A DNA stretch of 64,000 bases from Methanococcus voltae PS (GTDB lineage: Archaea; AGJL01; Methanococci; Methanococcales; Methanococcaceae). The notes beneath the pieces are model-generated. The model had not been told where the DNA came from. It saw only the letters and a list, made by a program, of their open reading frames with translations, and ran no database searches. A program made the translations under genes and the position numbers. Each line of letters opens with the position of its first letter. The stretch's first letter is position 1. Shown here one piece after another: positions 43,284-51,957 of this stretch. The stretch is from assembly GCF_024807035.1 (NCBI RefSeq), contig NZ_JANUCQ010000001.1, positions 62,001-126,000 of the forward strand. Reading direction: 5' to 3'.

Positions 43284-43475
43284 AATAACCACCTATAAAT
43301 TAGTATAATAATTTATAATTCTGATATAAATGAATAACATTAATATCGAATAAAATATAATAATAACAATATACTAGTTTATAACTTTTAAATTATATAA
43401 ATTAGCATTATATCTTAAAATAACACTTTTGATTAGTTTAAATTAATAAATAATATTAAAAAAAAGATTTGGTTA

Positions 43476-43507
43476 TGTTAGAGGGTCCAAAAGGTTCCCC
43501 TTTAACA
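43476..43507 (-). promoter_or_regulatory. SECIS-like hairpin 3' of fwdB
   Basis: On the minus strand the element folds into a stem TGTTA/TAACA, one A-C mismatch, an A-T pair and GGG/CCC, then an internal loop of GAA opposite A, two C-G pairs and a TTTT loop. This is the archaeal SECIS design. It lies about 120 bases after the fwdB stop. The fwdB gene upstream has no in-frame UGA, so the element appears orphaned. Confidence 0.75.
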
Positions 43508-43627
43508 AATAATTACTTAATTTTTCAAGACGTATTTTTGTAAGTATAAAAGGGGAATTTTACAACTTACCGATTTAATATCTATTATTCACTTTATTCA
43601 ATTTATTCTATTACAATTACTTATAAT

Positions 43628-44935
43628 TTATTCCATTTTCTTAACTTCTTTCAATAACCCACTGATAATTTCAGCATCTGAAAGTAAGCCTTCCGGAACA
43701 TCTACAACTTTTCTAAGTTCAATTGGTACGCCATCCATTCTATATGCGGTACCTGAAACTTCAACACCGGTTAATGCAGTAGGCATAACGATGTTAGCTA
43801 ATTCTGTTGTAGGTGTTTGGTGAGGGTCGATACATACCAATGGGATTTTAACCATATGCTCCAAAGCTTTCTGAGGGAAGTGTGCACCAGGGTCTGACGC
43901 AATGTTTAACATCATGTCGGTTTCTCCTCTCTGTAATAAGTCATTTGAAGCGGTTTCTCCAGGGTTATATCTTGGATATCCTCTCGAGAAATCCACACCA
44001 TAAGGATAACCGGTTATCCAAGTGCTAACCTGGTTAAATCCGTTCACGTTATAGTGTCCTCTCATAGGCATTAAGCTAAATTTGGTGTGAGCATTTAAAT
44101 CAACGATTAACTGAATTGCGTTATCGATAATTCTGTGCTTTCCTCTACTCATGGTTACACCCATTGAGAAGAATAGTGTACCAAATTGAGCATTTTTACA
44201 AAGGTCCACAGCTTCGTAAACTGTTTCTGTAGGAATTCCTGCTACGTAATCAGATTCAATTTTGAAGCCTTTTAAAGCTGCCCTCATAGCGCTTACTAAT
44301 TCATAATCTTTATGAGGTTCAACTTGAAGGTGAACATCTGCTAATTTTGCAGTATCTGTTTTTCTTGGGTCGACAACAATCATTTGTCTGTCTTTTCTTC
44401 CCCTCTCACGGAAGAACCCTCTTGCAAATACTGAGTATCTACTCATGTGTCTAGGGTGAGCGTGCATTGGATTGCTACCCCAGAATAGAACTGTATCAGC
44501 TCTGTTTTTAGTTTCCCCTAATGTGGCTACAGGATAGCCTACGTCTTGTACTGCCAATAATGATGGTCCGTGACATACACTCGCGGTGTTATCTAACACA
44601 CCATTAACTTTTTCGCCTAATAATACACCCAATTGTTGAGCGTGACATTCTGCAGAACTCCATCCATAGATTAATGGAAGTTTTGATTCTACAAGAAGCC
44701 TTGCGGTTTCTTCGATAGCCGTTTCATAGTCTACTTTTTTGAATTCGTCCTTTTTATTTTCTCTCATTAAAGGACTATCGTATCTTACAGAACCTTCATA
44801 ATGCATAAATTTAGCATTTCCGATTCTACAAGCATTTCTTGTACCTACAATATGCCCGTCTTCCACAAGAACTTCAATATCATCACATAGCGTTCCACAA
44901 AATGGACATACTACGTTTTTAACCACTTTTACCAT
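43628..44935 (-). CDS. fwdB: Formylmethanofuran dehydrogenase subunit B, Cys form
   Basis: FwdB carries the tungsten or molybdenum bis-pterin site that reduces CO2 to formate in the first step of methanogenesis. The 435-residue product has an N-terminal cluster segment (CPFCGTLC and, later, NACRIGN) and the metal-ligand region NTASVCHGPS with Cys121 encoded by TGT (44573-44575). Close relatives are reported to have selenocysteine here. AGGGGTGATAA precedes the ATG. It stands last in the hdrA-vhu block, 247 bases after vhuB, away from other fwd genes. A SECIS-like hairpin follows the gene. Confidence 0.93.
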   Translation of the reverse strand: MVKVVKNVVCPFCGTLCDDIEVLVEDGHIVGTRNACRIGNAKFMHYEGSVRYDSPLMRENKKDEFKKVDYETAIEETARLLVESKLPLIYGWSSAECHAQQLGVLLGEKVNGVLDNTASVCHGPSLLAVQDVGYPVATLGETKNRADTVLFWGSNPMHAHPRHMSRYSVFARGFFRERGRKDRQMIVVDPRKTDTAKLADVHLQVEPHKDYELVSAMRAALKGFKIESDYVAGIPTETVYEAVDLCKNAQFGTLFFSMGVTMSRGKHRIIDNAIQLIVDLNAHTKFSLMPMRGHYNVNGFNQVSTWITGYPYGVDFSRGYPRYNPGETASNDLLQRGETDMMLNIASDPGAHFPQKALEHMVKIPLVCIDPHQTPTTELANIVMPTALTGVEVSGTAYRMDGVPIELRKVVDVPEGLLSDAEIISGLLKEVKKME

Positions 44936-46418: not shown

Positions 46419-46770
46419 TTTTTAAGTGAATATTAAAATAACCATAAAGTTGATTATTTTAATCATAATTGATAATTATAATAGACAATTACAATTTAGA
46501 TATATAGTTTATTTCCTATAAATATTTTTAAATTTAGATAGTTAGTTACTAAATTTACTATTTACTATTTTGATATCAAATCTGATAATTAGTTTTAATA
46601 CTCAAAAAATTATCTCTAAGTTAGTATAATTATCAGAATATTAATTAAATATAATTTTTTAAATTTAAAACTTTATATTTAACATCTTTAATAGATATTT
46701 AATATTTTAATAATCTCAATTTTGACAATTAGTGTAATTATTTAAAAAATTAAAAAATTGTGAAATATTT

Positions 46771-46798
46771 CTTTACCTCCCAATGGGTTCGGTTAAAG
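46771..46798 (-). promoter_or_regulatory. SECIS element of vhuU
   Basis: On the minus strand CTTTAACC pairs with GGTAAAG (one bulged A), then GAA lies opposite A, then CCC/GGG closes an ATT loop. It begins 3 bases after the vhuU stop codon, in the 3' untranslated region as expected for archaeal selenoproteins. The remaining 400 bases before vhuB show nothing else but the short hairpin at 46405. Confidence 0.9.
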
Positions 46799-46800
46799 AA

Positions 46801-46935
46801 TTATTCATCGTTTACAATTTCAAATACAACGTTTCCTTCAGCATCTTCCACAATCATGTGAGCAGCACATGAGTATCAAGGGTCGTATGCTCTTAATACA
46901 ATTTCTATTAAATTTAATTTTGTTTCATCCACCAT
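46801..46935 (-). CDS. vhuU: Selenoprotein VhuU, active-site mini-subunit of the F420-non-reducing hydrogenase
   Basis: This 44-codon gene encodes the C-terminal metal-ligand piece that is missing from VhuA. The product has DP-Sec-YSCAAH, the usual DPCxxCxxH motif with selenocysteine at residue 20 from UGA at 46876-46878. Residues 2-26 give exactly the 25-residue mature VhuU known from M. voltae; the rest (MIVEDAEG onward) should be removed by the maturation protease after the nickel-iron site is built. GGTGGTAAT precedes the ATG, which lies 15 bases after the vhuA stop. UGA would stop a standard gene caller at residue 19. Confidence 0.95.
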
Positions 46936-49297: not shown

Positions 49298-49328
49298 GTT
49301 TTACAAGTCCAGAGGTTTCCTGTAAAAC
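49298..49328 (-). promoter_or_regulatory. SECIS element of vhuD
   Basis: On the minus strand GTTTTACAG pairs with CTTGTAAAAC (one bulge), followed by GAA(A) opposite A, two C-G pairs and a TCT loop. It lies 23 bases after the vhuD stop codon. It could serve both UGA codons of vhuD and, in a shared transcript, hdrA. Confidence 0.85.
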
Positions 49329-49756: not shown

Positions 49757-49977
49757 TGTTATCCCTTCCTATATTTTATTTTTATAGAATGATTAATTTA
49801 TTTGTAATATTTTTCAATGTATCTAGAAAATTTCTGTATTTTCAATATTATTTGAATAATATTACTTTATTTTTGAAATTACATACATTTTTTATTAATA
49901 TATCTAAATAATACTTAAAATATATGATATATTAACTAAGATATTAATTAAAGATATTTTTCAATAAATTTAATTAA

Positions 49978-51957
49978 TTATTCGTTATTAATCATATTAG
50001 CTGCATCTAACATTCCGTCAATTGAATCTAAGATTTGTGAGTCTCTGTAGTATCTTAACTGCATAGCACCACTTGGACATGCACCTGCACATGCTCCACA
50101 ACCTTTACATGCAACGTCGTCTGTTATAGCTACTAGATGACCTTCTTTTTCCTCGTATGTAATTGCATTATATGGGCACATTATTGCACATACTTTACAT
50201 CCACCACATACATCTTCGTCAACAGTTGCTCTAATCATTTCAATTTTGAAGCTACCTTGTGACATTGGAATAGCCACAGCACTTGCAGCACCTTTTGCCT
50301 GTGCTACTGTGTCTGGAATATCCTTAGGTCCTTGTGCAACTCCTGCAATTGCGATACCATCAACTTTTGTGTTAACTGGAGCTAATTTAGGGTGTGACTC
50401 CTTAAAGAATCCTTCTGGTCCTACATCAACGCCCATCATTTTAGCTAGGTCTTTTGTTTCTTTTTTACCCACTAAACCAGCTGATAATACAACTAAGTCA
50501 GCATCAATCTCTAAGATTTCGCCTAATAATGTATCTTCAACTCTAACGGTTAAGTTTTTGGTTTCAGGGTCTTCAATAACAGCTGCTGGTCTTCCTCTTA
50601 CGAATCTAACACCAAACTGTTCTTGTGCTCTTTTATAGTATTCTTCGTATCCTTTACCAAATGCCCTTATATCCATGTAGCAAATGTACACTTCTGCATT
50701 AGGGTCGTGCATTTTCATTAACTGAGCGTTTTTAAGTGCGAACATACAGCATACTCTTGAACAGTATGGGTTGCCGACTTTTTCGTCTCTTGAACCAACA
50801 CATTGGACAAATACAGTTCTGTGAGGGTGTTTACCGTCACTTGGTCTGATTTCATGACCGCCGGTAGGTCCAGCTGGGTTTATCATCCTTTCAATTTCTA
50901 AGGTTGTGATAACGTTGTCATAAACTCCGTAACCGTATTCTTCTTTCTGTGTAGCATCAAATTCATCGTACCCTGTAGCTGTGATAATTGTACCAACCTT
51001 AATTTCTACTTCTTCAGGTTTTTGGTCGTATCTTACAGCTTTTGCAGCACATACTTTTGAACAAAGTTCACAGTTAATACAGTGTTCCATGTCAATTGTA
51101 TATACTAAAGGTACAGCTTGTGGGAATGGTACGTATATCGCTTTTCTAGTACCTAAACCTAAATCAAATTCGTTAGGTATCTCTATAGGACATACTGCAG
51201 CACAAGCGCCGCAACCGGTACAGGTAATTTCATCAATGTATCTTGCTTTTTTCTCAAGTTTTACATTGAAGTTACCAATGTATCCATCAATATCTTTAAC
51301 TTCTGTGTAAGTTAATAATTCCACGTTAGGGTGGTTAGCCACCGAAACCATTTTCGGTGCGAGAATTCACATCGCACAGTCATCGGTTGGGAAAGTTTTA
51401 GCTAATTGTGCCATTCTTCCGCCGATTGACTCATCTTTGTCTACAAGATATATTTTAAAGCCTTGGTCGGCAAGGTCTAATGCAGATTGGATACCTGCAA
51501 TACCTGCACCTATCACCATACAGCTTTTATCTACATCCACAACTTTTTGAGGTACGTCCTCAAGTTTTTTAGCTCTAGCAATACCTGCTGCAACTAATTC
51601 TTTAGCTTTATCTGTTGCAGCTTTTACGTCATTCATATGAACAAAAGCGTCATGCTCTCTAATGTTCACAAACTCTAAGTAATATGGGGATATGCCTGCT
51701 TCTGATAAACACGCTCTAAACGTAGGTTCGTGGATTTTAGGAGTACATGCTGCTACCACAATTCTGTCCAACCCTTTTTCTTTGATTGCATCTTTAATAA
51801 GATTTTGTCCAGGGTCAGCACACATAAATGGGTATGATTCAGCAACTACTACTCCATCGAGTTTGGAAGCGAAATCTTTAACTGCTTCACAATCCACTGC
51901 ACCGTTGATGTTAGAACCACAGTAGCAAACGAAAACCCCCACTTTGGGGTCACTCAT
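49978..51957 (-). CDS. hdrA: Heterodisulfide reductase subunit A, selenocysteine form
   Basis: HdrA is the flavin subunit that bifurcates electrons from H2 to heterodisulfide and ferredoxin. The gene is interrupted in the standard code by UGA at 51367-51369, which sits in DDCAM-Sec-ILAPKM (Sec197), where other HdrA proteins have Cys. The full product has 659 residues: an N-terminal domain with VFVCYCGSNING, a FAD-binding GAGIAGIQSALDLADQG segment, a Cys-rich insert (CTGCGACAAVCP, CINCELCSKVC) and C-terminal ferredoxin motifs CGGCKVCAIMCP and CKGCGACAGACP. GGAGGTGAATCC precedes the ATG. It is the first gene of the block; no clear SECIS lies in its own 3' spacer. Confidence 0.95.

Follow-up and report, generated by a model that had tools for sequence, protein, structure and literature searches.

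The fwdB gene of Methanococcus voltae PS very probably encoded a selenoprotein until recently: its codon 121 would have changed from UGA to UGU after the split from the nearest sister species, and both the SECIS hairpin behind the gene and a 9-bp remnant of a second RNA element, the tether, are still in place. In fwdB, hdrA and selD of the Methanococcales, a stretch of 9-28 nt beside the 3′-UTR SECIS is likely, in our view with good confidence, to pair with coding sequence about 10-60 nt past the UGA and so to tether the SECIS. Novelty, as far as we can tell, lies in the tether, which is open to testing; the underlying observation is confirmed and its interpretation supported. The window that we analysed is a stretch of 64,000 nt (contig NZ_JANUCQ010000001.1, positions 62,001 to 126,000), and all coordinates refer to it. 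In keeping with M. voltae, RadA of this genome matches PDB 1t4g, the RadA of that species, at every position from residue 3 onward and deviates at residue 2 alone.

The fwdB gene and its codon 121

43628..44935, (-) strand: fwdB, 435 aa with no UGA in the frame; orthologous to M. maripaludis fwuB, which encodes Sec
44573..44575, (-) strand: codon 121, TGT (Cys), context NTASVCHGPS; TGA (Sec) in sister species

In a profile search, the fwdB product, a subunit of formylmethanofuran dehydrogenase (a key enzyme of CO2 fixation), matched TIGR03129 over its full length with 650.9 bits (cut-off 327.8), and it carries the (U/C)HGPS active-site motif as VCHGPS at position 121. Its PDB matches were 9sfi_Q and 5t5i_B (FwdB), and in 9sfi_Q (E 1.7 × 10−261) a non-standard residue, printed as X, stands exactly at the position of codon 121. 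On the (-) strand the gene comes after a vhuB-type polyferredoxin gene, vhuU, vhuA, vhuG, vhuD and hdrA; this vhu-side locus and a top identity to TGA-bearing copies, not to the Cys paralog, identify it as the fwuB ortholog. Reading the open reading frame at 44573-44575 agrees with the initial annotation, which had given TGT as Cys121 in NTASVCHGPS, the codon state being that of one assembly.

When and in which direction codon 121 changed

Nearly all fwdB orthologs at the vhu-type locus in 36 genomes of the order have one TGA. Five other Methanococcus genomes (G016-G020) carry TGA at codon 121 and the hairpin at the same vhu-side locus, and the same combination was found in every vhu-side ortholog examined in Methanococcus besides the window. 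Two of these genomes belong to sister species (G019 and G020) whose fwdB is 97% and 91% identical to that of the window, and both have TGA and the same hairpin. The coding sequence differs from those of the TGA-bearing sisters at 43 (G019, the nearest) and 114 of 1308 positions. With G020 as the outgroup, 24 of the 1308 positions changed on the window branch, mostly third positions, and only three codons were altered in meaning (TGA to TGT at 121, Q359E and E432K).

Because the sisters have both TGA and hairpin and only three codons were altered on the window branch, these comparisons support a change that ran from Sec to Cys, recently and by a single base. The few residue changes also suggest that fwdB is still under purifying selection. 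Two elements of the initial annotation are borne out here: that FwdB of relatives is a selenoprotein at this position and one base separates TGA from TGT, and that Sec was lost at FwdB with the SECIS still standing. The comparison of fwdB and its 3′ region among Methanococcus, proposed there as a check, showed TGA orthologs and a conserved hairpin.

As the proposed sequence of events, a single A-to-T change, evident from the comparison, would have turned UGA-121 into UGU in M. voltae after the nearest sister had split off. Cys would now occupy the tungsten/molybdenum ligand position of FwdB, presumably with a consequence for the enzyme, and the SECIS and the 9-bp complementarity may persist since there has been too little time for decay.

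The SECIS hairpin behind fwdB

43476..43507, (-) strand: SECIS hairpin (pseudo-SECIS) in the 3′ UTR of fwdB, by fold, covariance model, sister alignment and shuffles
46767..46801, (-) strand: SECIS of vhuU, for comparison, by pattern scan
49298..49328, (-) strand: SECIS of vhuD, for comparison; vhuD has two in-frame TGA codons

The hairpin reads TGTTAAAGGG-GAA-CC-TTTT-GG-A-CCCTCTAACA (43507-43476), starts 120 nt past the fwdB stop and consists of a basal stem of ten pairs, a GAA standing opposite A, an apical part with two C-G pairs and a UUUU loop. The KTL motif is present, with GAA and its two invariant A residues at 43497-43495 opposite 43486, and the GC clamps and a basal stem of at least 3 bp are given by GGG/CCC, an A-U pair, an A-C mismatch and 5 further pairs below the apical CC/GG. 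The mismatch, at basal-stem pair 5 (43502/43481), is absent in the two sister species. The initial annotation had described a hairpin about 120 bases past the stop with every archaeal SECIS feature; position, motif and loop stand, and the stem has to be corrected at pair 5. Its further statement that the only other hairpins of this type in the window follow vhuU and vhuD was reproduced.

We built a covariance model with 12 pairs from 19 fwdB SECIS elements of other genomes, leaving the window element out; 95% of the cells in its alignment are paired and the covariation exceeds that of all shuffles. Searched against the whole 1.78 Mb genome, the model gave the fwdB hairpin 40.7 bits (E 2.9 × 10−7), the next match having an E of about 3, and 43476-43507 folds as a methanogenic SECIS, a check that the initial annotation had proposed. 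The model did not recover the other SECIS elements of the genome, which rest on the pattern scan; that scan overlooked the selD element of the voltae clade, with its UAA/A motif, and may have overlooked others. In this selD element (L218 and L219, 3′ UTR), UAA apparently stands opposite A where GAA is expected (TATCC-TAA-CC-TTTT-GG-A-GGATT). None of 40 dinucleotide-shuffled windows contained a SECIS-like hairpin equal in score to that of fwdB, and the folding z-score of the hairpin alone is unremarkable (-1.1).

The predicted stability of the hairpin is -11.1 kcal/mol, compared with -12.9 and -14.0 in the sisters and -9.3 and -9.5 kcal/mol for M. maripaludis-type elements. Because it is more stable than the latter and keeps both A residues of GAA, the element could probably still work. 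M. maripaludis-type fwuB SECIS elements reach about half of the reference activity in vivo, a basal stem of three pairs is enough for some SECIS activity, and both A residues of GAA are essential (PMC11881835). With the in-frame UGA gone from the window fwdB, the hairpin does not count as a functional SECIS; it is homologous to the SECIS of relatives and lies behind a gene whose Sec codon is now Cys, which makes it a pseudo- or fossil SECIS.

On the window branch, two substitutions fell into the 32 nt of the SECIS, one producing the A-C mismatch and the other turning a G-U pair into G-C. It is unlikely that selection maintains the hairpin for a different purpose, either the protection of the mRNA 3′ end or service to another UGA on the transcript, although several features would suit such a role. 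The new G-C pair is one of them, and another is a run of eight T (about 43459-43466) that directly follows the hairpin here and in relatives, so that a 3′-end role is possible. A third is that hdrA (49978-51957, same strand as fwdB) has an in-frame TGA, and no SECIS that would belong to it is visible: neither SECIS nor tether was found in its 3′ region (49757-49977) in the three voltae-clade genomes, and relatives have both. Against this explanation, two changes in 32 nt, one of them pair-breaking, are about what drift would give at 24 changes in 1308 CDS bases, and hdrA lies about 6 kb upstream with the SECIS elements of vhuD and vhuU in between. Because there are only two substitutions, near the drift expectation for that time, a relic and a maintained element so far look alike in this hairpin.

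Complementarity between the fwdB 3′ UTR and coding sequence

44540..44548, (-) strand: tether, CDS half, CAAGACGTA, +27..+35 from the first base of codon 121
43526..43534, (-) strand: tether, UTR half, TACGTCTTG, which complements 44540-44548 and lies 18 nt upstream of the SECIS stem
43540..43570, (-) strand: hairpin common to three voltae-clade genomes, where relatives have the GGTATCC tether half

Upstream of the SECIS, the 3′ UTRs of relatives contain the nearly invariant GGGTATCCTACATCCTG, which is the reverse complement of CAG GAT GTA GGA TAC CC, a coding sequence shortly past the UGA that encodes the conserved QDVGYP; in M. maripaludis fwuB the UTR half is GGTATCCTAC. In an exact-match comparison of UTR with CDS, the longest complement was located at CDS +26..+44 in 26 of 26 SECIS-bearing fwdB loci, the window included, with a length of 9-26 nt and the UTR half about 11-20 nt upstream of the SECIS. 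At the five fwdB loci without SECIS, two Cys paralogs among them, the longest complement was found elsewhere (0/5 at the site). A SECIS flank complementary to the CDS 3′ of the UGA at a conserved position, as known from fdhA1, is thereby present in fwdB.

The two halves change together between species, with matched species-specific changes such as GAC/GTC, GAAATA/TATTTC and GGAGGT/ACCTCC. Among 12 distinct pairs from Methanococcales fwdB, we counted 16 compensatory cells compared with a shuffled mean of 5.4 (0/500 shuffles), and 20,000 permutations of UTRs among CDSs never matched the own-species pairing (0/20,000); these statistics overstate the significance, related sequences not being independent, a limit that does not affect the recurrence in hdrA and selD. 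In all 23 fwdB genes with a full tether, Gly is always encoded by GGA and Tyr always by TAC, and the third base of Pro, which lies outside the duplex, varies. We scored tethers by exact complement searches, which replaced RNAduplex on full UTRs after the latter over-extended the duplexes. A synonymous-codon shuffle is a weak null, the same codons often staying in place; in its stead we relied on agreement in position, on covariation and on permutation.

It is unlikely that the complementarity reflects protein conservation or chance and not RNA pairing. The CDS half does encode a conserved motif, many loci are not extreme under the synonymous shuffle, and Peiter et al. reported that fdhA1-type flanks raise activity per mRNA about twofold and leave total reporter activity unchanged (PMC11881835). 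Protein conservation or chance is opposed by the matched species-specific changes and the permutation result, by the invariance of GGA and TAC next to a free third base of Pro, by the Cys paralogs, which have nearly the same CDS and lack the UTR element, and by the recurrence of the arrangement in hdrA and selD together with the recovery of the published fdhA1 case. With RNA pairing as the preferred reading, the duplex of 10-26 bp in relatives would fold the mRNA and bring a SECIS from a distance of about 1 kb to the side of the UGA. Observed are the complementarity and its covariation; pairing in the cell and an effect on recoding are what we infer.

The voltae clade keeps nine base pairs of the tether (44548-44540 with 43534-43526), and hairpin 43570-43540 has replaced the rest of the UTR half. 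CDS codons that thereby lack a tether partner have changed synonymously (GGA to GGC, TAC to TAT). The 9-bp remnant in the window is not significant on its own and counts by its position only. Both remaining halves are identical in the window and a TGA-bearing sister, and because TGA-bearing sisters share the shortening, it predates the Sec-to-Cys switch. The loop TTCCCC (43552-43557) of the replacing hairpin, which is invariant in the voltae clade and hence provides no covariation evidence, is complementary to GGGGAA of the SECIS (43495-43500), and such UUCCCC-GGGGAA pairing could possibly hide the SECIS.

Complementarity in other genes and a second Cys case

A comparable complementarity was found in hdrA at 17 of 17 loci with a 3′ SECIS, where 9-28 nt, mostly 17-22 nt upstream of the hairpin, match CDS +28..+62 within a searched span of CDS -60..+240 only. 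In selD it was found at 15 loci, with 14-21 nt starting at CDS +9..+13; all belong to the thermophilic genus groups g4 and g5, and no selD tether was found in Methanococcus. The same approach recovered the published fdhA1 5′-UTR case at CDS +28. No comparable complementarity was found in fruA, with a UGA near its stop codon, or in vhuD (134 aa). The likely tether reading includes a rule of distance: tethered genes would be those with the UGA roughly 1-1.5 kb from the SECIS, and fruA (UGA near the 3′ end) and vhuD (short) would do without. The open-access literature that we searched contains no report of a tether for a 3′-UTR SECIS, and as far as can be told it appears to be new.

Genome G033 (L282) contains a tandem pair of a third FwdB-type gene, a Cys copy (DNTATVCHAPS) and a Sec copy (DNTATIUHGPS), each with the same SECIS and a tether-like CTGGATATCCTC behind it. 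With this Cys copy, the window is not the sole case of Sec-to-Cys change in which the SECIS still stands, although in G033 the downstream Sec copy could also make use of the hairpin.

Other arrangements were also seen. At three loci (L019, L023 and L033 in G013, G003 and G009), fwdB has TGA and neither a 3′ SECIS nor a tether was seen; for two of these loci, the closest hairpin is about 1.6 kb upstream, probably the SECIS of vhuU. For fmdB (Sec codon +97) of Methanococcus and some Methanothermococcus-like genomes, no 3′ SECIS is visible (L057-L062 and L283), and a SECIS-like hairpin (TATTGGG-GAA-CCA..TGG-A-CTCAATG) lies inside the open reading frame (6532-6561 in L057, also in L058-L062 and L283). 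At this site the protein reads NPMDSMP, and relatives with a 3′-UTR SECIS encode NPMHSHP, as if the protein had yielded to the SECIS within its reading frame. In G018, fmdB has TGT (Cys) and retains this hairpin.

Selenocysteine use in the rest of the genome

55290..55378, (-) strand: tRNA-Sec gene (Rfam RF01852, 59.3 bits)

In addition to this tRNA gene, the M. voltae genome has SepSecS, and in-frame TGA is retained in selD, fruA, vhuU, vhuD, hdrA, two fdhA genes and a second FwdB-type gene. Because all of these have been kept, the use of Sec is intact in this genome, and among the selenoprotein loci examined fwdB appears, from the sequence comparisons, to be the only one to have left it. The second FwdB-type gene is fmdB (G000:C4), still with TGA; the initial annotation had suggested looking for a second fwdB in the strain and had itself missed this gene. 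Both fdhA genes of the voltae clade have TGA, and the pattern scan showed no SECIS nearby (L119-L124); that M. voltae lacks the fdhA 5′-UTR SECIS is noted in PMC11881835.

M. maripaludis JJ induces a separate Cys fwdB together with vhc and hdrA under selenium shortage (PMC11097638). At vhc-hdrA, the three voltae-clade genomes (G000, G019 and G020) have a Cys hdrA and no Cys fwdB, and G015 and G018 have a Cys fwdB nearby. The absence of a separate Cys fwdB from the voltae clade could plausibly, though it does not prove it, account for the conversion of the Sec gene itself: the clade would have lost the backup that stands behind vhc-hdrA in M. maripaludis and M. vannielii, and conversion of the Sec gene would have been a way to a selenium-independent enzyme. 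G015 has no vhu-type VhuA/VhuD and no Sec fwdB; it keeps only the Cys fwdB, vhc and hdrA, with TGA retained in selD, fruA and fdhA, and would represent another route of partial selenoprotein loss.

We consider it quite improbable that TGT is a sequencing or assembly error and fwdB still a selenoprotein gene. An error would need a single base, read from one assembly, and both hairpin and tether are still intact. On the other side, completeness of the genome is 98.6% and contamination 0.01%, a further Cys fwdB is absent from the clade, though M. voltae reportedly induces selenium-free hydrogenases under selenium shortage (as cited in PMC11097638), and the title of a 2005 article on a M. voltae pseudo-SECIS (PMC2933860, ref. 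149) would be independent support if it concerns the same gene. A chance stem-loop, or an element of a separate small UGA gene as the initial annotation had allowed, hardly deserves consideration despite the modest z-score: the genome-wide model score and the 40 shuffled windows refute it, homologous elements with compensatory changes stand behind TGA-bearing fwdB across the order, and with TGA read as sense the interval from stop to hairpin holds no small UGA gene able to own the hairpin.

Implications and comparison with known systems

The window fwdB is a clean, dated, one-base loss of a selenoprotein in an organism that otherwise keeps Sec, and Sec-to-Cys substitutions in prokaryotes are called rare in a 2026 review (PMC13188914). 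Because no archaeal SECIS-binding factor is known (PMC11881835), it is in question how a 3′-UTR SECIS acts on a UGA a kilobase away. A covarying duplex in three unrelated genes suggests that the mRNA itself brings SECIS and UGA together, and it gives defined bases for mutation. The pairing would also account for certain synonymous sites in tethered genes that never change. If the tether is read correctly, nature has provided in the window fwdB a loss-of-UGA mutant that lets the decay of SECIS and tether be watched.

The closest precedent is the pseudo-SECIS of Methanococcus voltae (Böck & Rother 2005, Arch Microbiol 183:148-150; cited in PMC2933860), which by its title lies in the same species behind a selenoprotein gene turned sulphur homologue. 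Because of this title, and because fwdB is the only fitting gene among the loci examined, the core finding, a Sec-to-Cys fwdB with a leftover SECIS, was most likely already published there. The frc and vhc genes were rejected as the gene in question, the pattern scan having shown no SECIS-like hairpin at either. The initial annotation had presented the locus as a fresh snapshot of selenoprotein loss; the switch is supported, its novelty probably is not, and the tether had been overlooked. Relative to the 2005 article, as far as its title tells, the tether, the dating by sister species and the G033 case are added here.

Fossil SECIS elements are also known from insect selenoprotein loss, where Sec-to-Cys change likewise left a recognisable SECIS (PMC2500217); those are of the eukaryotic type, whereas the window element is archaeal and has an additional pairing element. 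The Cys isoform of FwdB behind vhc-hdrA in M. maripaludis has Cys at the same ligand position and lets formylmethanofuran dehydrogenase run without selenium (PMC11097638). That gene, a paralog in its own right, has neither SECIS nor tether (L048 and L055), whereas the window gene is a converted Sec ortholog.

The methanococcal fwuB SECIS (Peiter et al. 2025, PMC11881835) resembles the window element in ortholog, position, KTL motif, GC clamps and 3′-UTR location, but has AAA/A in M. maripaludis where the window has GAA/A, and the window gene has no UGA. The flanks of the fdhA1 5′-UTR SECIS in the same study resemble the fwdB tether in that a stretch next to the SECIS pairs with the CDS shortly 3′ of the UGA, and in both cases the complementarity is longer in hyperthermophiles and weak or absent in M. 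voltae. The fdhA1 case concerns a 5′-UTR SECIS only, whereas the complementarity described here belongs to the 3′-UTR SECIS of fwdB, hdrA and selD, lies upstream of the hairpin and spans about 1-1.5 kb.
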